A DNA stretch of 64,000 bases, taken from positions 496,001-560,000 of the forward strand of contig NZ_JAHVXI010000001.1 in assembly GCF_021032705.1 (NCBI RefSeq), given 5' to 3'. The position numbers were made by a program, and so were the translations under genes. This DNA comes from Psychroserpens luteolus. GTDB taxonomy: Bacteria; Bacteroidota; Bacteroidia; Flavobacteriales; Flavobacteriaceae. The notes below the pieces were generated by a model. It searched no databases. It was not told the DNA's origin and saw only the letters and a list, made by a program, of their open reading frames with translations. Below, piece by piece: positions 54,745 through 64,000 of the stretch (position 1 is its first letter; each line of letters begins with the position of its first letter).

Positions 54745-56061
54745 ATGAAAAACAAAACTACTTACCCTCGAGATTTTTTTTCAAAAGCATTAGCATTTGT
54801 TTTAATGATATCTTGTTCGACACTAGTATTCGCTCAAGATTATCAAATTGTAGGCGAAGCTGTTTATTTAGATGAACCTACTTGTGAATATCCAAGAATA
54901 TTTGATCCAAACAATGAACAAATTTCTATACCTAACGAATTAATCTTAGCTAGAGATGGAGCAGGTTCTAATGGAACAGCATGCTCAACTTTTGTAGTAT
55001 CTTATAATGGATTTACGCAAGAAGCTCAGGATGCATTTCAATTTGCTGTAGACATTTGGTCTAATACTATTGAGTCTTCAGTACCAATTAGAATTAATGC
55101 AAATTACACGGCTTTAGGACCTGGAGTTTTAGGAAGTGCTTCTGCAAACGGATTTTTTGAAGTGACTGGAGCAGGTATTCCGCCTAATACGCTTTTCCCA
55201 AGAGCGCTTGCCGAAAAATTAACAGGTTCTGATACAGATCCATTTCCACCGCAAGCATCAATTGACATCAACTGTAATTTTAGCAGTTCGATAAATTGGT
55301 ATTTTGGAACTGATGCTAATCCATTTTTTAATCAATTCGATTTTGTATCGGTAGTTTTACATGAATTAGGACATGGGTTAGGTTTTGCTGGTTTTGCGAG
55401 ACCAAATGGCGCTAACACCGAAGGATTACTTAGAAACGGTGGTTTTGTAAGTGCTTATGATAATTTTGTAGAAAATGGTGCAGGAACTTCTATTTTAGAT
55501 TTTCCAGACCCATCATTTCAATTATTACAGCAACTTACTGGTGGGAATTTATTTTCTAACAGTCCTGCAGCTGTCGCAGCAAATGCAGGTGTACCACCAG
55601 AATATTGGGCACCAAACCCATTTAATCAAGGGTCTAGTTATAGCCATTGGGATGACAATATATTTCCAAATGATAATATAAATTCTTTAATGACGCCCTC
55701 TATAGGTAATGGTCAAGCTAATCATAATACTGGTCCTATTACAAATGGATTATTTCTAGATATGGGCTGGACACTTTGCCCAGCGCTTAGTGTTAATGAA
55801 TTTACTTTAGAGAGCTTAGAAGTGGCGCCAAACCCTTTTAATGACAATATTAGAATTACCTTACCAGGAAACTATAATGATAGTGATTTTAACATCTCGA
55901 TACTTGATGTTAATGGTCGCGTTGTTTTAGATAAAGATGTATCAAGTATTAACAGAACTATTGATATGGACTTATCTCAGTTAAAAGCATCTATTTACTT
56001 TATGACTATAGAAGATGATGTTACTGGCTTAACTGTAACTAAAAAGATTGTTAGACAGTAA
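54745..56061 (+). CDS. T9SS-secreted zinc metalloprotease-like protein
   Basis: The 438-residue protein has an N-terminal hydrophobic signal (about 12-30, ending VFAQ) and a metalloprotease-type domain. The zinc motif is HELGHGLGF (His206, Glu207, His210). A later SYSHWDDN may supply the third ligand, and NSLMTPSIG resembles a Met-turn. The C-terminus is a type A T9SS sorting domain (about 360-438, EVAPNPFNDNIRITLPG, ending TVTKKIVRQ). Related flavobacterial proteins carry the same HELGHGLGF block. It is likely a secreted peptidase. A terminator separates it from the convergent lanthipeptide operon. Confidence 0.83.
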   Translation: MKNKTTYPRDFFSKALAFVLMISCSTLVFAQDYQIVGEAVYLDEPTCEYPRIFDPNNEQISIPNELILARDGAGSNGTACSTFVVSYNGFTQEAQDAFQFAVDIWSNTIESSVPIRINANYTALGPGVLGSASANGFFEVTGAGIPPNTLFPRALAEKLTGSDTDPFPPQASIDINCNFSSSINWYFGTDANPFFNQFDFVSVVLHELGHGLGFAGFARPNGANTEGLLRNGGFVSAYDNFVENGAGTSILDFPDPSFQLLQQLTGGNLFSNSPAAVAANAGVPPEYWAPNPFNQGSSYSHWDDNIFPNDNINSLMTPSIGNGQANHNTGPITNGLFLDMGWTLCPALSVNEFTLESLEVAPNPFNDNIRITLPGNYNDSDFNISILDVNGRVVLDKDVSSINRTIDMDLSQLKASIYFMTIEDDVTGLTVTKKIVRQ

Positions 56062-56227: not shown

Positions 56228-57118
56228 TTAACTAACTTTACTTCTTGCTATTAAAGAGTTATAGTAACGAGATAAAAAATCGTAACATACCATTTCATTT
56301 AATCGATTTTTGGACTTAAATACGCGGTTCATTAGCATGTGAATATAACTCGCCATTAAATCATCAATATGCAATTCTAGTTTATGATCTTGATTGAGTT
56401 TTAAAATACGAGCTGCTATTGTACTTATATGATGTTCCTTTTCCCTTAAAACTCCAATAATAGGCTCATAATCGGGTATATCATTTTCCTTAAACGCAAT
56501 AAAATTTGCAATTTTAGGTCTATCTTCTCTGTATTTATCGTTTAACTGTTTTCCTAAAAACTTGGTCTTTCCAAACTCTAAGGCAAATCCTATTTTTAAA
56601 TCATTTAATAAGCCTTGTTTACGCGCGTTAGAATACTGAAAACTTTCGAGCAAAGCATCTGTGGCTTTCAAAGCAAATAACCATCTTAGTTCTTCGCCTT
56701 CTTCGCCTTCTATCATATCTATAAAATCAACGATCATTTTACTATCGTGATAAAATAATTCTTCGCTCATCTCCATGGTATTGCTACCATATCGCTTTAA
56801 TTCTCTCATATAAGTGTCAGACTGTACTTTCCATATAAGTCCTTGGTCTATTGACGGTTTTAGTTGTTCATTTAATTCGTTAATTATTAAACCAACATTC
56901 TTTTTATCTATACAATAAAAACGTAATCTTAAGTGATATTTTGGGTCATTGAATCTTATAAAAAACCACTTATCAATAACCTTTTCTTTTATTAACTTTT
57001 GGGTTAGAGGTTTCACAATTTCGGTTAAAATCATGTCAGATGTTTTGGGTCCTGAATAGACTTTATAATACAACCAGTGATCGCCTAAAATATATTTACT
57101 CTGAATCTTTTTATCCAT
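56228..57118 (-). CDS. stand-alone LanB elimination domain (SpaB_C/thiopeptide-type)
   Basis: The 296-residue protein corresponds to the C-terminal elimination domain of class I lanthipeptide dehydratases. That domain removes glutamate from glutamylated Ser/Thr to leave dehydroalanine or dehydrobutyrine. Residues matching the NisB elimination site are visible: Arg64 and Arg66 in DPKYHLRLRF, Arg109 in ELKRYGS and His260 in ASYIHMLMNR. It starts 9 bp after the glutamylation-domain gene, so the dehydratase is split in two. It is the last recognised gene of the operon. Confidence 0.9.
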   Translation of the reverse strand: MDKKIQSKYILGDHWLYYKVYSGPKTSDMILTEIVKPLTQKLIKEKVIDKWFFIRFNDPKYHLRLRFYCIDKKNVGLIINELNEQLKPSIDQGLIWKVQSDTYMRELKRYGSNTMEMSEELFYHDSKMIVDFIDMIEGEEGEELRWLFALKATDALLESFQYSNARKQGLLNDLKIGFALEFGKTKFLGKQLNDKYREDRPKIANFIAFKENDIPDYEPIIGVLREKEHHISTIAARILKLNQDHKLELHIDDLMASYIHMLMNRVFKSKNRLNEMVCYDFLSRYYNSLIARSKVS

Positions 57119-57127
57119 AGTGGTAGT

Positions 57128-59365
57128 TTACTTCTTCAATTTTCTCTCATTATAGAATGATACGATAATTTGATTGGTACAATATTGTGTATCTTGTTTT
57201 ACTCTATTATTATTAACAGATAAAAATTCTTTTAACTGAAACTCGGTTCTCTTATTTACTAAATTCAGTAACATTTTTACTGAAGTTAAGTTTTCAAAGT
57301 TTACTAATAATTGATTATCTCCATCGGCTAGCAATACATATTTTGGTATGTTTAACTTGAATCTTAACTGGTTAACTGCCTCTTTTAACTTATCATCATC
57401 ATTTTCATTTTTAAGTAACGTGTCTATCCTATTTTTCTTGATATACCATGTTGCTTCGTGAAGAATAAGGTTATTGTATTCTACTCTTGGCAGAAATTCA
57501 TAATTCTCACTTAAAGGGCCATAATCAAACCACATTTCACTTCTAATTTGTTGTGTTTGTAAGTCACATAAAAAGTGATAAATAGGTAATGAATTGTGGC
57601 TATAATTATGAGCGTTAGATAATCGCGGTATTACTTCTTTATTGTGCGTTTTTGACCTCAATACAATATCAGTATTATTTTTTATGGAGATCATAAGATC
57701 ATCAATTGGCAACTGAAATTGTTCTGGTCTAAGCGATTTAGCCAAATACGGAATTTCATATTCACGCAAATTTGGACGCATTAAAATATTACCCACTCTA
57801 GATTCTGGCAAATGAACAATTTCAGCAATAATTTTGTTCGAATTAATTTTAGATTCAACATCTGAAATTTCTTGAACGAGTTGCTTCATTTCTTTATCAC
57901 CATGGCAAAACCTCCCAAGAAGGTTAGCAGCGCTAGAACCTCCATATCCATCAAACTTAATTTTTTGTTTCCCTTCAATTTCAAGAATTTCAATCATACA
58001 AGAAAAAGTGTCTGGTAGATCATCCCAGTTCTCCTCTATATTCTCAAAATCACGCTTTGAGATTGTAATGGTAAATGCATTATTTTGATAGGCTTCAATC
58101 AACTTTTTTTGAAGAAAATCGTGTATCGGAGACCATTTAATCTCTCTTACGTTATACTTCGTTTTTTTTGATTCAAGAACAAGATTGTCAACTAAAGGAT
58201 TAATATCTCCATGACCTTGGTTTTGTTTATATCCTAATCCTATTTCTGTATCTAGAGCTTGAGATAATGGTACTTCATTTTCTTCAAATCGTTCATAAAA
58301 AGCGTCTCTAAATTTGGTCAATGACGATGTTCTTTTTTTAGCATTGATTTTATTTAATAGTCTAAGTCCATTTTGAATATCTCTAATAATATTTTTGTCA
58401 AGTGTATTTGTTTTTCGGCCAAGAATCATGTCTGTTTGAAACATGAATTTTGGATTAGTGTCTGTTTCAAAATCATTGAGAAGAGCAATCACTTCTTGAT
58501 ATGTTTTAGTATCATTTCCTAGAGTATTGTCTATCGTTTTCAGTTGGTTTCTAATTGTATTTAGTTTTTGAATAATCGTTTCGACATTTTCCAATTTACT
58601 AAGCACAGAAAATATTTGGTCTAAAAACTCGGGACCTGATACCGAAGGCTCGAACTCACTAACAAGTAACTGATTTGAAACTAATTGCTCTACATAACCA
58701 TAAGCTTCATCTTCTGTGACCTCTTTACAAACCAATACATTTGCAAGATCTTTAAGTTTTGCACCTGTTTTAGCAAGCGTTAAAACCTGATCCAAATAGC
58801 TTGTATGATCTACTGAAATGATATAATGATAGCGTTTCCCTTTAATATACTTGTATTCAATATATCGTAATTGATTCGCTATTTTGTAAATACTTGTATT
58901 TGGAAAAAACAGAAGTTGTTTTTTTACATGTTCAATTTTTGTCAAGTCTTGAGACAAGGCTACCAAATAGTTCATGTCTAACCTTGTATGACGTTTATGG
59001 TCTTCAATACTGTTTAGACTAATGTTAGTTTCATCACTAAAGGTTCCAATAGAACATCCAGCAAATAAACCAAAAGGTGTACATCTAGAAGACATTCGAG
59101 ATAAGTATTTTAGTATTGAAAATTTAAGCTTATCTACATCTTTCACATTTTCAATTTCTCCATTTATCCATCTATTGATTGCATTAGACAATGCAGGTGA
59201 GGCTAGAAAAATGGCTTCTTTTACTCGAACATCAGAGCAAAAACCTTTAAATTGTTCATCTGAAATATGCTCCTTTGCTGTTATTTGCTTATAAAAGTCA
59301 AATGTTAGTAAAGGGCTTCTTAATACATAACTAGAGAAGTTTTTATATGGAATACGATTACCCAT
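57128..59365 (-). CDS. LanB glutamylation domain (lantibiotic dehydratase N-terminal part)
   Basis: This 745-residue protein corresponds to the large N-terminal domain of LanB. That domain uses glutamyl-tRNA to glutamylate Ser/Thr side chains of a precursor peptide. The family signature SSRCTPFGLFAG lies at about residues 92-103, followed by TRLDMNYL (about 127). Later blocks include GYGGSSAANLLGRFCHG and SSLTKF...RFEENEVPLSQALDTEIGLGY. The protein ends without the elimination domain, which is encoded separately 9 bp downstream. No tRNA or precursor gene lies beside it. It starts 7 bp after the LanC gene. Confidence 0.92.
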   Translation of the reverse strand: MGNRIPYKNFSSYVLRSPLLTFDFYKQITAKEHISDEQFKGFCSDVRVKEAIFLASPALSNAINRWINGEIENVKDVDKLKFSILKYLSRMSSRCTPFGLFAGCSIGTFSDETNISLNSIEDHKRHTRLDMNYLVALSQDLTKIEHVKKQLLFFPNTSIYKIANQLRYIEYKYIKGKRYHYIISVDHTSYLDQVLTLAKTGAKLKDLANVLVCKEVTEDEAYGYVEQLVSNQLLVSEFEPSVSGPEFLDQIFSVLSKLENVETIIQKLNTIRNQLKTIDNTLGNDTKTYQEVIALLNDFETDTNPKFMFQTDMILGRKTNTLDKNIIRDIQNGLRLLNKINAKKRTSSLTKFRDAFYERFEENEVPLSQALDTEIGLGYKQNQGHGDINPLVDNLVLESKKTKYNVREIKWSPIHDFLQKKLIEAYQNNAFTITISKRDFENIEENWDDLPDTFSCMIEILEIEGKQKIKFDGYGGSSAANLLGRFCHGDKEMKQLVQEISDVESKINSNKIIAEIVHLPESRVGNILMRPNLREYEIPYLAKSLRPEQFQLPIDDLMISIKNNTDIVLRSKTHNKEVIPRLSNAHNYSHNSLPIYHFLCDLQTQQIRSEMWFDYGPLSENYEFLPRVEYNNLILHEATWYIKKNRIDTLLKNENDDDKLKEAVNQLRFKLNIPKYVLLADGDNQLLVNFENLTSVKMLLNLVNKRTEFQLKEFLSVNNNRVKQDTQYCTNQIIVSFYNERKLKK

Positions 59366-59372
59366 GCAATAG

Positions 59373-60584
59373 CTAGTTTATTATTAAACATTCATCCCAA
59401 TGCGCATCAAAATCGCTTAAATAGCTAATCATTGCCAATCCGATACCAGTTATTCCAGTAAGAAGCGATAGATCTTTAGACCAAGTTTCGTTATCAGGAT
59501 TCCACATTTTATAACCTGCAAAACCATCATCAAAACTTGCCATTTTAATACCTTCAGTTATCCAAAATTCTAAGGCATCTTTAAATATAGTGTCGCTAGT
59601 TTCTCTATAAAGTCTAGTATAAATTAGAGCGTTTCCAAAAGCACCATGACATAATCCAGCATCTTCAACTTTGGTGTCTTTCGTTGTTTTTCTAGACGTT
59701 GTATGTTTCAGTATAGTTAAAGCTTCAGTTTTTAAATTATTATCCTTTAAGGCTTTAGACGCTTTAAACAATGCGACACCTATTCCTAAGTCACCATAAC
59801 ACCATGCTAATCTGCTTTGACCTTCGGGTATATTATCTTGTGTTACCCAATTAGGGAATAAACAATACGTCTCTTTTTCAGTATTTTTAAAGCGCTTAAT
59901 ATAGCTTATAGCTCCTCTTAAAAGAAATGCTACCCTATTCTTGATTATGTTTTCTTCATAAAGTTTAGCAAGAATGAATACAATACTAGATATCCCATGA
60001 GATAAGCAAAGATTATATCCTTTTTGTATAGGTTGAAAAGTTAAAATTGACAACCACTTTAAACCCTCTTCTTCTTTTTTTGATTGGTTTTCTAAAAATG
60101 AGATAAACTCTAATAAAATGCTTTTATATTTTTCTTTTAAGGCGGCCGAGCTTGTGTTTTGATATCTATATAAAAAGTAATAGACTTGACCTATAGCGCC
60201 ATGCAGGAAATCGTAATTGTCTTGTTTAAAATTAGCGTCTAATGCTGTGTACAAATAGTCATCTATATCTTTAAGTAAATCATCGCTTCCAATCTCAATA
60301 AAGTGATTTAATTCCAAAAAGTCTAAAGTCCAACCAAAACCAGCAATTCCATTAGAATACAAAGGTGAATTATAACCATGGTTAATCTTTTCAATACAAT
60401 GACTTAAAATATTTGCACCAAAATTGGCATTATCCTCTATGTCTAAGTATTTCGAATAATAGAACTGAAATAATGCCATGCCTGACAGCCCTGACATTAA
60501 ACCAATATGTTCTTCATTAATGTATTCTGTCTCAATAATTTTGCTAATCTCTGCGAGTTTGGCTTCCAAGAGATGTTTATTCAT
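59373..60584 (-). CDS. LanC-type lanthionine cyclase
   Basis: LanC enzymes catalyse Michael addition of cysteine thiols to dehydro-residues, forming lanthionine rings. The 403-residue alpha-toroid shows the zinc ligands Cys262 (WCYGDLG) and Cys312-His313 (LCHGAFG), plus the general acid/base His206 (LCLSHGISS), matching NisC Cys284, Cys330-His331 and His212. Repeated GxxG turns (GLSGMALF, GIAGFG, GITGIGLA) mark the toroid. The ATG at 60584 (MNKHLLEAKL) is used; the longer frame would run back into the small membrane-protein gene at 60595-60762. Confidence 0.93.
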   Translation of the reverse strand: MNKHLLEAKLAEISKIIETEYINEEHIGLMSGLSGMALFQFYYSKYLDIEDNANFGANILSHCIEKINHGYNSPLYSNGIAGFGWTLDFLELNHFIEIGSDDLLKDIDDYLYTALDANFKQDNYDFLHGAIGQVYYFLYRYQNTSSAALKEKYKSILLEFISFLENQSKKEEEGLKWLSILTFQPIQKGYNLCLSHGISSIVFILAKLYEENIIKNRVAFLLRGAISYIKRFKNTEKETYCLFPNWVTQDNIPEGQSRLAWCYGDLGIGVALFKASKALKDNNLKTEALTILKHTTSRKTTKDTKVEDAGLCHGAFGNALIYTRLYRETSDTIFKDALEFWITEGIKMASFDDGFAGYKMWNPDNETWSKDLSLLTGITGIGLAMISYLSDFDAHWDECLIIN

Positions 60585-60594
60585 AAATCTATTT

Positions 60595-60762
60595 TTATCT
60601 GAAATAATAATCCATAACCATATAAAGTATAGGCTCATCATCTATTTTGAGAATTAAAAGAGCAAACAGAATTAGCACTATGACTAAGCTTAAAATAATA
60701 AGACCATATTTTACAACAGCAAACCTGTTTTTATCTAATTCTTTTTCTAAATTATTTTCCAT
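60595..60762 (-). CDS. 55-residue single-span membrane protein in the lanthipeptide operon
   Basis: This gene was missed by a length cutoff. The ATG at 60762 lies 2 bp after the ABC transporter stop, and the TAA ends 10 bp before the LanC ATG, a perfect fit in the operon. The protein has a charged N-terminus (MENNLEKELDKNRFAVVK), one hydrophobic helix (about residues 19-38, YGLIILSLVIVLILFALLIL) and a short tail ending YMVMDYYFR. It could assist the exporter, anchor the modification complex, or confer immunity. It has no lanthipeptide-precursor character (no Cys, no leader), so it is not the substrate. Confidence 0.72.
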   Translation of the reverse strand: MENNLEKELDKNRFAVVKYGLIILSLVIVLILFALLILKIDDEPILYMVMDYYFR

Positions 60763-60764
60763 AA

Positions 60765-62969
60765 CTACGATCCTAATTCCAATTGGTTTTTAACAAGGTT
60801 ATAATAGTTTGATTTATTGTTAACCAAATCTGTATGCGTCCCTTGCTCAACAATTTTACCGCTCTTTAATACCACGATTTGATCTGCATTTTTAACAGTA
60901 CTAAGCCTGTGCGCAATAATAACAACCGTTTTATTTTTAAAAAATGCTTGTAAATTGTTATGAATAATTTTTTCGTTTTCAGCATCAAGTGCACTTGTAG
61001 CTTCATCAAAGAAGATATAGTGTGGGTTTTTATAAACAGACCTAGCGATAAGTATTCTCTGTTTTTGTCCTCCTGAGATTCCATTTCCTGAGGCTCCAAT
61101 TTTAGTTTTTAGCTTTTGAGGTAATCCGGAAATAAATTCTTCTATATTAGCTGTCTTGATTGCAAATTGAAGTCTTTCTTCATCTATTTCGTCATCCCCT
61201 GTTGCAATATTTCTTTCTATTGTACCTGAAAAGATATACCCTTCTTGCATCACAACACCGCAGTTTTCTCTCCAATTTTTTGGTGAAATATTCTTTAGAT
61301 CATGTTGGTTTACATAAGCACTACCGTTAACAGGATTATAGAATTTTAAAAGAATTTTCATCAAGGTAGTTTTTCCACTTCCACTAGCTCCAACAATTGC
61401 CGTTGTCTTTCCTTCAGGAATAAATAAGTTGATGTTTTTTAAAACAAAAGGAGATTTTGGTCCTTCATATTGATAGTCTAATTCATTTAATCGGATGCCT
61501 TTTTCAACACCATTTTGGTAGGTTAAGTCCTTTTCGCTAAGTATAATTTGCCCTTCTTTTTCTTCCTCTTCCTGATCCTGAACTTCACTTAGGCGTTCCA
61601 TACTAAGCCTAGCATCTTGAAGCGATCTAAAAAAACTGATCAATTGATTTACTGGAGAGTTCATTTGACCAATGATATAAGCAATAGCCAGCATGGATCC
61701 TAAAGTAATATTTCCAAAAATCACCTCTCTAGCAGCAATAAAGGTTACCAAGATGTTTTTAAGTTGATTTATAAAATTAAAGCCCATTAATTGAAACTGA
61801 TCTAATTTTAAAGCTCTCAGATTAACGCCAAAAAGCTTTACTTGAATCGTTTCCCATTCTTTTCTTTTAAAATCTTCAAAACTATTTAGTTTAATCTCCT
61901 GAATCCCATTAATCATTTCATAAATAGACTCTTGATTTTCACTTCTTCTTTGGAAACGATAATAATCTAAGATTCTTCTTTTCTTTAAAAAATATATAGA
62001 CCATAGTACTGCAACTAAGGTTAGAATTGAATAGGCAATTACAATTTTATAATCATAATATAGGAGTACGAAAAAGAATATTGAAAAGTTAATTATTGAA
62101 AATAATGTGACTAGCGATTGTGAGGTTAAAAATTCTTCAATTCTTTCATGATCTTGAATTCTTTGGTTGAAATCACCTATAAGCTTAGAATCAAAAAAGT
62201 TAATAGGAAGCTTCAGTATTTTTTTAAAAAAATCTGAAATGATTGTAATATTAATCCTTGTTCCTATATAAAGCATAATCCAATTACGAACAATCTCAAT
62301 AACTATAGAACCTAAGAACAAAAAGACTTGTGCTAGCAAAATAATAAAAACAATACTCAAGCTTTTACTCTCAACTCCTTTGTCTATTAACGATTGTGTT
62401 AAGAAAGGAAAAATCAAGGTAAATAAACTTCCGGCCATCAGACCCAGAAATAATTGAAAAACTTCTTTTTTATATGGCTTTAAAAAGCCTAGTAAGAACT
62501 TGAAGTCTATACGCTTTTTTTTAAGAACCTCCTTTTTATAGAATTCTTCTGTTGGATGCAAAAACAGAGCAACGCCTTTATCGTTTTCGGTAAGCCATCT
62601 TGATTTAAATTCTTCTTCGTTTAAAGAAATTAGGCCATGTGAAGGATCTGCAATTTTGTATTTATACTTTCCGGTAAGGATGTTTTTTTTATGATTATAG
62701 AGTACAACAAAATGGTTTTGATTCCAATGAAGCACACATGGCAATGTTCCTTCTATATCAAGTGTTGTAAGATCCAGCATACTTGCATGTGTACTAAATC
62801 CTATTTTTTCAGCGGCTTCAGAAATCCCTCTTAAACTAACACCATCTCGTTTTAAATAAGAAATATTCCTGATGTAGTCAATTCGGTGTTTTTTTCCGAA
62901 ATAAGCTGATATCATGGCAATACAAGCTGGACCACAGTCCATTTGATCATGTTGAGGAATTAACTTCAT
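60765..62969 (-). CDS. peptidase-domain (C39) ABC exporter
   Basis: The 734-residue bacteriocin-type exporter has three parts. An N-terminal C39 leader peptidase (about 1-125) carries Cys12 (QMDCGPAC), His86 (NQNHFVVLY) and Asp108 (IADPSHG). A six-helix membrane domain spans about 165-440. The ATPase domain (about 495-734) has Walker A GASGSGKTT (about 525), signature ISGGQKQR and Walker B IFFDEATSALD. It would cleave a double-glycine leader and export the mature peptide. No HlyD-type periplasmic adaptor is encoded in the visible operon. It is followed 2 bp later by the small membrane-protein gene. Confidence 0.94.
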   Translation of the reverse strand: MKLIPQHDQMDCGPACIAMISAYFGKKHRIDYIRNISYLKRDGVSLRGISEAAEKIGFSTHASMLDLTTLDIEGTLPCVLHWNQNHFVVLYNHKKNILTGKYKYKIADPSHGLISLNEEEFKSRWLTENDKGVALFLHPTEEFYKKEVLKKKRIDFKFLLGFLKPYKKEVFQLFLGLMAGSLFTLIFPFLTQSLIDKGVESKSLSIVFIILLAQVFLFLGSIVIEIVRNWIMLYIGTRINITIISDFFKKILKLPINFFDSKLIGDFNQRIQDHERIEEFLTSQSLVTLFSIINFSIFFFVLLYYDYKIVIAYSILTLVAVLWSIYFLKKRRILDYYRFQRRSENQESIYEMINGIQEIKLNSFEDFKRKEWETIQVKLFGVNLRALKLDQFQLMGFNFINQLKNILVTFIAAREVIFGNITLGSMLAIAYIIGQMNSPVNQLISFFRSLQDARLSMERLSEVQDQEEEEKEGQIILSEKDLTYQNGVEKGIRLNELDYQYEGPKSPFVLKNINLFIPEGKTTAIVGASGSGKTTLMKILLKFYNPVNGSAYVNQHDLKNISPKNWRENCGVVMQEGYIFSGTIERNIATGDDEIDEERLQFAIKTANIEEFISGLPQKLKTKIGASGNGISGGQKQRILIARSVYKNPHYIFFDEATSALDAENEKIIHNNLQAFFKNKTVVIIAHRLSTVKNADQIVVLKSGKIVEQGTHTDLVNNKSNYYNLVKNQLELGS

Positions 62970-62995
62970 AAATCTTAAACACTTTTATATTAAGC

Positions 62996-63021
62996 TATAG
63001 CTATCAAATTTGATAGCTATA
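62996..63021. promoter_or_regulatory. perfect 26-bp palindrome inside the lanthipeptide operon
   Basis: TATAGCTATCAAA is followed directly by its exact complement TTTGATAGCTATA, in the 68-bp gap between the monooxygenase and exporter genes. Neither side has a T-run, so it is not a simple terminator. It may be an operator for an internal promoter or an mRNA processing stem. Confidence 0.6.
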
Positions 63022-63037
63022 AAAGGGTTAATGTATA

Positions 63038-64000
63038 TTAATTGACAATTGTTTCTTTTTGCAAATTGAATCGGTCACTTATAGCATTAATATTGGAAAG
63101 CAATTGTTGAGGGTCATCTGTTAGGTCGTGAATAATAAATTCATCAACACCATATAAATCTTGGTATTCTAAGAGCATATTATATAGAGAATCGATGGTA
63201 ACCGCAAAAATTTTAAACCCTTCATTTTCCCCTTGACCATAATGAGCTTTGAGCTGCTCCAATGCTTTTAGAGCTTCAGGCATTGTATTTTTCATACAAA
63301 TTGAAATTCCAATATTCACTTTAGGATAGACCTTGTGTTTTTCAAAAAAGTCTTGCTTAAATTTCAAGAGTTCTTCTTTTTTATAATCATCCTCTCCTGG
63401 CAATGAGTGAAATAATGAACGACTATAGTTAAGTCCATATTTAATAGCTGTTTCAACATTTCTATAAGACGTAGACAAATACCACATTTCTGGTGCTTTT
63501 CCACCATAAGGAGGTATTACTACTTCATTTTCTTCAAGGTTTTTCTTTTCATTATAAAGCAGGTCATAGATTAATTTTAGCTTGTCATCAAAATCTTGTC
63601 TAAAACTTTTTCTGCTATTTAGATCTCTGTCCATTTTAACAACTTTCTTGGTCTCTACAAGTCCGCTTCCCTTAGCTAATCCTAGATCGATTCTATCATA
63701 AAACATATTATTCATTAGCTTATAGTTTGTCACGACAGGATAGGCATCATGTATTATAATTGTAGATCCTGCTGAACCAACTTTTATTTGATCTGTCATT
63801 CCTGCTATGATACCAATTAATAGATCTGGATTTGTAAATGCTGTTGTAGTTAGAGGTCCATGATGTTCCCCTAACCAGAATCTAGAAAACCCTAGTTTAT
63901 CTGCTTCCACAGCATATTCTATGATTTCTTCTATTGTAGCCATACTATTTTTATCTATTCTATAGCCATATTCTAATAGTCCTATTTTAATGTCTCTATT
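63038..64000 (-). CDS. luciferase-like flavin monooxygenase, 5' end outside window
   Basis: The frame is open to the right edge (19 codons beyond the internal ATG at 63943), reading DIKIGLLEYGYRIDKNS before MATIEEIIEYAVEADKLG. The true start therefore lies beyond 64000, and the visible part is about 320 residues. The TIM-barrel LLM family pattern is clear: GFSRFWLGEHH (about 20 residues into the 63943-started form), IKVGSAGSTIIIHDAYPVVTNYKLMNNMFYDRIDLGLAKGSG, and a C-terminal ...FIIHDLTDDPQQLL. Such FMN/F420-dependent enzymes occur in RiPP clusters as tailoring enzymes (recollection), and it precedes the exporter in the same operon. Confidence 0.88.
   Translation of the reverse strand, partial: NRDIKIGLLEYGYRIDKNSMATIEEIIEYAVEADKLGFSRFWLGEHHGPLTTTAFTNPDLLIGIIAGMTDQIKVGSAGSTIIIHDAYPVVTNYKLMNNMFYDRIDLGLAKGSGLVETKKVVKMDRDLNSRKSFRQDFDDKLKLIYDLLYNEKKNLEENEVVIPPYGGKAPEMWYLSTSYRNVETAIKYGLNYSRSLFHSLPGEDDYKKEELLKFKQDFFEKHKVYPKVNIGISICMKNTMPEALKALEQLKAHYGQGENEGFKIFAVTIDSLYNMLLEYQDLYGVDEFIIHDLTDDPQQLLSNINAISDRFNLQKETIVN

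Follow-up and report, generated by a model that had tools for sequence, protein, structure and literature searches.

A minus-strand gene cluster that runs from position 56,228 of a 64,000-nucleotide stretch of Psychroserpens luteolus DNA (the window; RefSeq assembly GCF_021032705.1, contig NZ_JAHVXI010000001.1, positions 496,001 to 560,000) past its right-hand edge is probably a complete class I lanthipeptide cluster, in which a pair of LanC proteins, one of them zinc-free, handles a core of the form [ST]C-x3-[ST]C. Judged from sequence, the cluster encodes precursors, a split LanB, a canonical zinc LanC (LanC1), a C39 exporter, a second LanC-family protein (LanC2) and luciferase-like flavoproteins (Table 1). 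The bridge pattern, and the chemistry of the luciferase-like monooxygenases (LLMs), we infer.

In class I biosynthesis, LanB uses Glu-tRNA for dehydration; Cys is activated by a zinc LanC, and protonation of the enolate falls to a conserved His (PMC9934072). A first-pass annotation of the window had listed six genes (LLM, C39 exporter, 55-residue membrane protein, LanC, LanB glutamylation domain and separate LanB elimination domain) as a class I lanthipeptide-type operon. Pfam matches, and the conservation of the 55-aa open reading frame (ORF) in relatives, confirm that these genes are real and stand in that order. The LanB is indeed split: PF04738 and PF14028 lie on separate proteins, both far above cut-off.

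The annotation had found no precursor in the gaps of the window and had expected one beyond position 64000. Both statements hold. The list of ORFs of 40 aa and more shows no leader-bearing ORF in the gaps, and rightward extension of the contig revealed five tandem precursors with double-glycine (GG) leaders ~2.4 to 3.4 kb past the edge. All five match the NCBIfam family NF038153, “class I lanthipeptide” (40.9 to 50.5 bits, cut-off 22 bits; E values between 1.6e-10 and 1.7e-13), which supports the class I assignment; with a sixth ORF, Pre6, which passes narrowly, six of six ORFs exceed the cut-off. The cores of the five read SC-x3-[ST]C-N. Chance ORFs are ruled out by the NF038153 matches and by the conserved arrays in relatives.

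A second LanC without zinc ligands

LanC2 is a member of the LANC_like family, scoring far above the cut-off of 23.2 bits; the AWCYGD and GLCHG motifs of LanC1 correspond to DLAYGD and SLFYG in LanC2. The zinc ligands Cys284, Cys330 and His331 (NisC numbering) are replaced by Ala, Phe and Tyr, and the catalytic His212 is kept as His191, in VTHG. The protein stands alone and is not a lyase-kinase-cyclase fusion of the class III LanKC type. The Cys-Cys-His site of a class I cyclase is supplied by LanC1. The ratio of nonsynonymous to synonymous substitution rates (dN/dS) is 0.065 and 0.098 for LanC2 and 0.094 and 0.109 for LanC1, values that are rough because dS in these four comparisons is 1.3 to 2.4. 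On these ratios LanC2 is under purifying selection, like LanC1, and the LanC2 values rule out a decaying duplicate. A search of LanC2 against PDB sequences gave no match at 0.001.

Two of the 23 genomes of the genus, P. luteolus and G414, carry a LanC2-type cluster. The gene set from the outer-membrane barrel protein to LanBc keeps its order in G414 (locus L053, with which L058 of “Uncultured Psychroserpens sp. isolate 3-1643-Z” coincides) and in locus L059 of “uncultured Flavobacteriaceae bacterium isolate 2-674-G”. More widely, matches to LanC2 or to LanC2 alignments were found in 20 of 397 genomes of the family, 11 of 395 of the phylum, 24 of 249 in the G691 genus and 45 of 246 in the G506 family; among the last, ligand typing covers those with a fetched neighbourhood.

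We collected 76 distinct LanCs, with three zinc ligands in 59, two in one, one in four and none in 12, a set biased to LanC2-like proteins because LanC2 was the query. Of the 16 proteins that keep one ligand or none, 15 retain His212, and all have another residue in place of NisC Arg280; 53 of the 59 three-ligand proteins keep this Arg. In the larger LanC tree, where the positions of G039 and other long branches are unsure, the proteins with at most one ligand require at least three changes, two of them forced by well-supported branches. Hence, the zinc ligands were lost more than once. Locus L072 (G572:C2:336792-337493) encodes a ligand-free LanC (WAYGD and LAYG) whose long branch lies apart from the LanC2 clade. 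Whole-genome searches of 12 genomes with PF05147 showed no LanC other than zinc-less ones in G691, G496 and G850, and none but a one-ligand LanC in G1185 and G1247; two matches, L178 and L201, belong to G1232 and G1252 and were left untyped.

Clusters with zinc-less LanCs

Seventeen clusters, in two families, combine an LLM with a LanC that lacks two or three zinc ligands; L034, L110 and L158 are counted although the partner LanC keeps one. The P. luteolus cluster, L053 and L059 have a split LanB and two LLMs. L073, L074, L108 and L109 have a fused LanB, and both of their LanCs are without any ligand. L157-L164, from the second family, have a fused LanB and a second LanC with zinc ligands. L110 and L034 make up the remainder. 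Two pairs of loci are the same place: L036 and L111, and L058 and L053.

A LanC with all three ligands occurs in 13 of the 17 clusters. Zinc ligands and His212 are found together in one LanC in eight (P. luteolus, L053, L059, L110, L157, L158, L164 and L034). In the zinc LanC of L159-L163, Asp141 is replaced by Thr and His212 by Tyr. Asp and His are present in the zinc-less partners of L159 and L163, the two of this group that were aligned, and LGHG in all five partners; the catalytic residues in L159-L163 are divided between two LanC proteins. With four clusters that have no zinc LanC and five that have zinc and His on different LanCs, nine of the 17 are without a complete canonical LanC site.

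Seven further clusters (L077, L114 and L166-L170) have no LLM and a sole LanC that keeps just the first zinc Cys. Their cores are of the kind STGCGSGGSTC.

A core motif that follows LanC2

The motif [ST]C-x3-[ST]C is present in 16 of the 17 clusters with a zinc-less LanC and an LLM (46 of 47 distinct cores; the exception is L110). It is absent from all 20 canonical clusters (34 cores) and all seven single-LanC clusters (15 cores), these comparison clusters being those brought in by LanC2 searches and not a random sample. Shuffled versions of the 47 cores contained the motif 0.32 times on average and three times at most. The motif was already known to us when L157-L164 were collected, and it is present in all eight.

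ORFs judged stray were dropped before these counts (8 prefixes in an eight-cluster count, 17 in the full count); one of them, in L164, could be a true motif-free precursor, and its inclusion gives 46 of 48. L122, L174 and L176, in which no precursor was found, Pre6-type ORFs, which have no GG, and L056 and L057 stand outside the counts. In L123 and L125 the count may include precursor ORFs that go with other neighbours.

Among 31 distinct modules from 14 clusters, position 1 is Ser in 27 and Thr in 4, position 6 is Ser in 25 and Thr in 6, and Asn follows in 22. Exchange of Ser and Thr at both sites together with strict Cys is the expected look of a LanB substrate site. By inspection, cores with four pairs are mostly two consecutive modules. 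Core Cys residues are preceded by Ser or Thr in 93 of 98 cases in the first eight clusters and in 28 of 89 in the 16 clusters compared with them; for the full set the figures are 125 of 145 and 37 of 165. The comparison cores also exceed their own shuffles (28 [ST]C, mean 17), which points to a mild general preference for [ST]C pairs but not for the x3 module.

A survey of 246 genomes of the second family gave the same association from another side. Strong precursor matches (E up to 3.1e-12, the next being 7.3e-9) fall in eight genomes, and these same eight hold the closest LanC2 relatives (E up to 2.3e-83, the next being 9.0e-58); three of the eight genomes had supplied rows to the precursor alignment used as query (A6). 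One of the eight, G1052 (L165), stands outside the cluster counts because its contig is short; its truncated precursor has SCGVNSC.

The motif does not follow LanB or the main LanC. LanBn of P. luteolus scores 789 bits against a canonical split LanB (G317) and 263 bits against the fused LanB of G691; LanC1 is 45% identical to the canonical G317 LanC and 20% to the LanCa of G691. In contrast, LanC2 groups with the zinc-less partners (LanCb) of other clusters (support 96; 90 in the larger tree), and the C39 exporter forms a group (support 99) with those of zinc-less and one-ligand clusters, to the exclusion of six canonical exporters. The comparisons indicate that the motif tracks LanC2 and C39, and this is our main reason for proposing that LanC2 acts on the motif. 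On the same grounds LanC2, C39 and the motif make up a single unit, in most cases accompanied by an LLM, that has been joined to two different sets of LanB and main LanC.

In G691, two near-identical precursors (L073:18168-18490) have the core AAASCVLLSCNK. This pair is a very small substrate set for a test of zinc-free cyclisation.

Proposed mechanism and alternatives

How might such a cluster process its core? LanB would dehydrate both Ser/Thr residues of the motif to dehydroalanine or dehydrobutyrine, each adjoining a Cys. The two LanCs would then work as a pair on the core. Since its catalytic His is kept, LanC2 could join thioether formation without zinc, whether by acting itself as a zinc-free cyclase or by presenting the core to LanC1. 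An LLM may reduce a left-over dehydro residue, in the manner of LanJC, or oxidise sulfur. The C39 exporter should cut at GG and export the product, and the adjacent barrel protein is a candidate outer-membrane exporter or immunity factor, for an outer-membrane step or self-protection.

Several observations weigh against this proposal. L110 has a zinc-less LanC and an LLM without the motif, and that LanC is also without His212. The site of LanC1 in P. luteolus is complete, as is that of a LanC in eight of the 17 clusters, so LanC2 there could be scaffold only. On the 5.9-kb contig of G1052, the motif, a zinc-less LanC and LanB occur with no LLM or second LanC between them; the motif thus does not require an LLM beside it. 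The C39 of L034 falls outside the group of C39 exporters from zinc-less clusters. For a LanC2 relative, AlphaFold gave a poor model (mean confidence score, pLDDT, of 57 from two sequences) with an unreadable pocket; the top Foldseek match of this model, the class I cyclase MadC, reaches only E 0.013. Finally, the association of motif with cluster type (p = 1.3e-9) is overstated, because the clusters share ancestry and the counts are not independent.

A more specific form of the proposal, which we put forward tentatively and rate as less likely than not, is a reciprocal double thioether made by a two-protein LanC cyclase with one zinc-free member, followed by LLM tailoring. The motif [ST]1-C2-x3-[ST]6-C7 would form a hairpin in which each of the cross-strand pairs 1-7 and 2-6 brings a single dehydro residue together with a single Cys. 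The hairpin would be stapled by two lanthionines that run in opposite directions, like the rungs of a ladder. Zinc would be contributed by one LanC and the acid-base His and Asp by the other, as in L159-L163, or the reaction would be zinc-free throughout, as in clusters of the G691 type. The product may have an undescribed kind of bridge.

Alternatively, the LLMs may oxidise sulfur to give a thioether sulfoxide, which is possible, if on balance doubtful; as a tailoring step only, it would be compatible with a LanC pair acting on the core. The nearest solved relative of the LLMs is the luciferase-like monooxygenase 4us5, which we take to be MsnO8. P. luteolus has no PF01933 (CofD) match and so probably no F420. 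An F420-dependent LLM is disfavoured on this basis, since PF01933 is matched in 10 of 14 control genomes. GarO of actagardine is a precedent for sulfoxide formation on a thioether; our literature search listed no paper on GarO.

We consider it unlikely that LanC1 alone forms the rings, with LanC2 a dead duplicate kept as a structural subunit and the LLMs as optional tailoring. The numbers of clusters with an all-three-ligand LanC, and with His212 in the same protein, would fit such a division, as would the joint loss of Arg280 and the zinc ligands in all 16 cases. However, both LanCs are ligand-free in L073, L074, L108 and L109, and the whole-genome search showed no other LanC in G691, G496 and G850. 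The zinc LanC of L159-L163 is without Asp141 and His212, and one-ligand LanCs related to the LanC2 clade are the sole LanC in the seven LLM-free clusters.

It is also improbable that LanB and an LLM install D-alanine or D-aminobutyrate, leaving Cys free or in a disulfide, with the zinc-less LanCs merely presenting the peptide. LLMs of lanthipeptide clusters have been proposed to reduce dehydro residues (LanJC, birimositide; PMC7268733), Ser/Thr and Cys stand in direct pairs, and an LLM is present in all four clusters in which both LanCs are zinc-less. Against these points, a zinc-ligand LanC is kept in most of the clusters, G1052 has the motif with no adjacent LLM (on its short contig), and the exact x3 spacing suggests bridging. 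An LLM alone as partner of the motif is not supported, since L116 has an LLM and a zinc LanC without the motif, and on the short contig of G1052 the motif stands without an LLM.

Relation to known systems

Split LanB proteins, class I clusters in Bacteroidota, LLMs and a bare tally of LanB with an undefined triad are known. Our searches, which covered open-licence PMC papers, listed no description of the LanC2 family, the motif or the zinc-less partner.

The pinensin cluster of Chitinophaga is likewise a class I cluster from Bacteroidota with LanB divided into glutamylation and elimination proteins, a split also known from thiopeptides (PMC7268733). Compared with pinensin as described there, the P. 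luteolus cluster has two LanCs, one of them without zinc ligands, two LLMs and tandem SC-x3-SC precursors. LanA, LanB and LanC of Chryseobacterium OV715 and Runella limosa are also from Bacteroidota and are functional in E. coli, with seven dehydrations and three rings; the main text of that report does not contain “zinc”, “luciferase” or “two LanC” (PMC9993889).

Class III cyclases are zinc-independent, and the cyclase domain of ThurKC shares with LanC2 a LanC fold without Cys, Cys and His (PMC10604976). The ligand positions are Ser, Phe and Asp in ThurKC and Ala, Phe and Tyr in LanC2. ThurKC is fused to lyase and kinase domains and has Asp for the catalytic His, whereas LanC2 is stand-alone, keeps the His and belongs to a LanB cluster. 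The closest category in a 2024 survey table is “B-Unk” (LanB with an undefined cyclase triad), with 14 peptides (PMC11251773). That survey is a count: its main text has no words beginning Bacteroid, luciferase, Flavobacter or Chryseobacter, and the sections consulted describe no family, motif or partner. LanJC of birimositide is, like the LLMs described here, a PF00296 protein in a lanthipeptide cluster; it comes from Streptomyces, with class II two-component precursors.

The LanC2-type proteins make up a clade of stand-alone LanCs under purifying selection, with no zinc LanC beside them in three near-complete genomes. Whether class I cyclisation can be zinc-free, and which product would result, is directly testable with small co-expression sets, and clusters with the zinc site and the catalytic His on different LanCs could serve as a probe for a possible reaction shared by two LanCs. 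The rigid core motif, from a phylum that has been little explored, could serve as a short template for a stapled peptide scaffold that is possibly new.

Cluster genes and neighbours

Table 1. Features of the P. luteolus cluster, with the copies of Pre6 in two relatives. Positions beyond 64000 are window coordinates continued along the same contig (L002 coordinate + 60000).
Feature	Position	Strand	Matches and remarks
LanBc, separate LanB elimination domain, 296 aa	56228..57118	-	PF14028 (Lant_dehydr_C) 1.5e-68; TIGR03891 1.4e-70
LanBn, LanB glutamylation domain, 745 aa	57128..59365	-	PF04738 (Lant_dehydr_N) 2.9e-148
LanC1, canonical zinc LanC	59373..60584	-	PF05147 (LANC_like) 7e-44; motifs LSHG, AWCYGD, GLCHG
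55-aa membrane protein, one hydrophobic stretch	60595..60762	-	ORF list
C39 peptidase/ABC exporter	60765..62969	-	PF03412, PF00664, PF00005
LLM2, luciferase-like (MsnO8-type) flavin oxidoreductase	63038..64006	-	PF00296 (Bac_luciferase) 6.9e-20; 5ʹ end 6 bases past window edge
LLM1, second luciferase-like protein	64003-64950	-	PF00296 8.9e-23; 44% identity to LLM2
LanC2, second LanC-family protein, 392 aa	65018-66196	-	LANC_like 80 bits
Pre6, precursor-like ORF	66171-66350 (L002:6171-6350)	-	NF038153 23.7 bits
Precursor 5	66366-66536	-	NF038153
Precursor 4	66577-66744	-	NF038153
Precursor 3	66787-66939	-	NF038153
Precursor 2	67024-67188	-	NF038153
Precursor 1	67268-67435	-	NF038153
Outer-membrane barrel protein	67567-69969 (L002:7567-9969)	-	PF14905 6.4e-90
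Response regulator	70079-70762	-	
Tetratricopeptide-repeat (TPR) histidine kinase	70773-72812	-	
Pre6 copy, L053	L053:15816-15995		
Pre6 copy, L059	L059:9829-10020		

The catalytic residues named in the first-pass annotation are present with one exception. LanC Cys262, Cys312 and His313, Arg64, Arg66, Arg109 and His260 of the elimination domain (SpaB_C), and Cys12, His86 and Asp108 of C39 stand as given. The residue called His206 of LanC is not a histidine: position 206 is Ala, and the equivalent of NisC His212 is His196. This numbering starts at the internal Met20 of a 422-aa ORF (59373-60641), which we take as the start of LanC1; the relatives begin there too.

LanBn, the sole PF04738 match in the genome, aligns over residues 6-726 with the solved LanB-type protein 9g04 (2.6e-56) and also matches NisB (4wd9, 8.1e-13). 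The 55-aa protein has no Pfam family above cut-off and is kept in two relatives at 95% and 84% identity. TIGR03558 scores 122.9 bits against LLM2, under its cut-off of 166.95.

Pre6 is without a GG site and has an unchanged SCLLYSC module; it overlaps the start of lanC2 in the three clusters of the P. luteolus type. The module is kept, and GG is absent, in three of three clusters. With dN/dS of 0.32 and 0.21, Pre6 is under weaker constraint than the enzymes. A decayed copy is not favoured, as every cluster retains the module though the GG is missing. Without GG, Pre6 should not be cut by C39; candidate roles are a decoy, a regulator or a substrate of another protease.

At the score applied, a PF14905-related barrel gene lies upstream of the precursors in 14 of the 17 clusters with a zinc-less LanC and an LLM (13 of 16 plus L074; the L034 match is weaker, and the L161 contig ends there), in seven of seven single-LanC clusters and in none of the 20 canonical clusters. 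At the other end, an ORF that looks by sequence like a secreted metalloprotease (window 54745-56061) adjoins the cluster, and one with the same sequence start lies at the matching place in G414 (L053:4338-5672). This shared neighbour places the P. luteolus and G414 clusters at the same chromosomal position, unlike L059.

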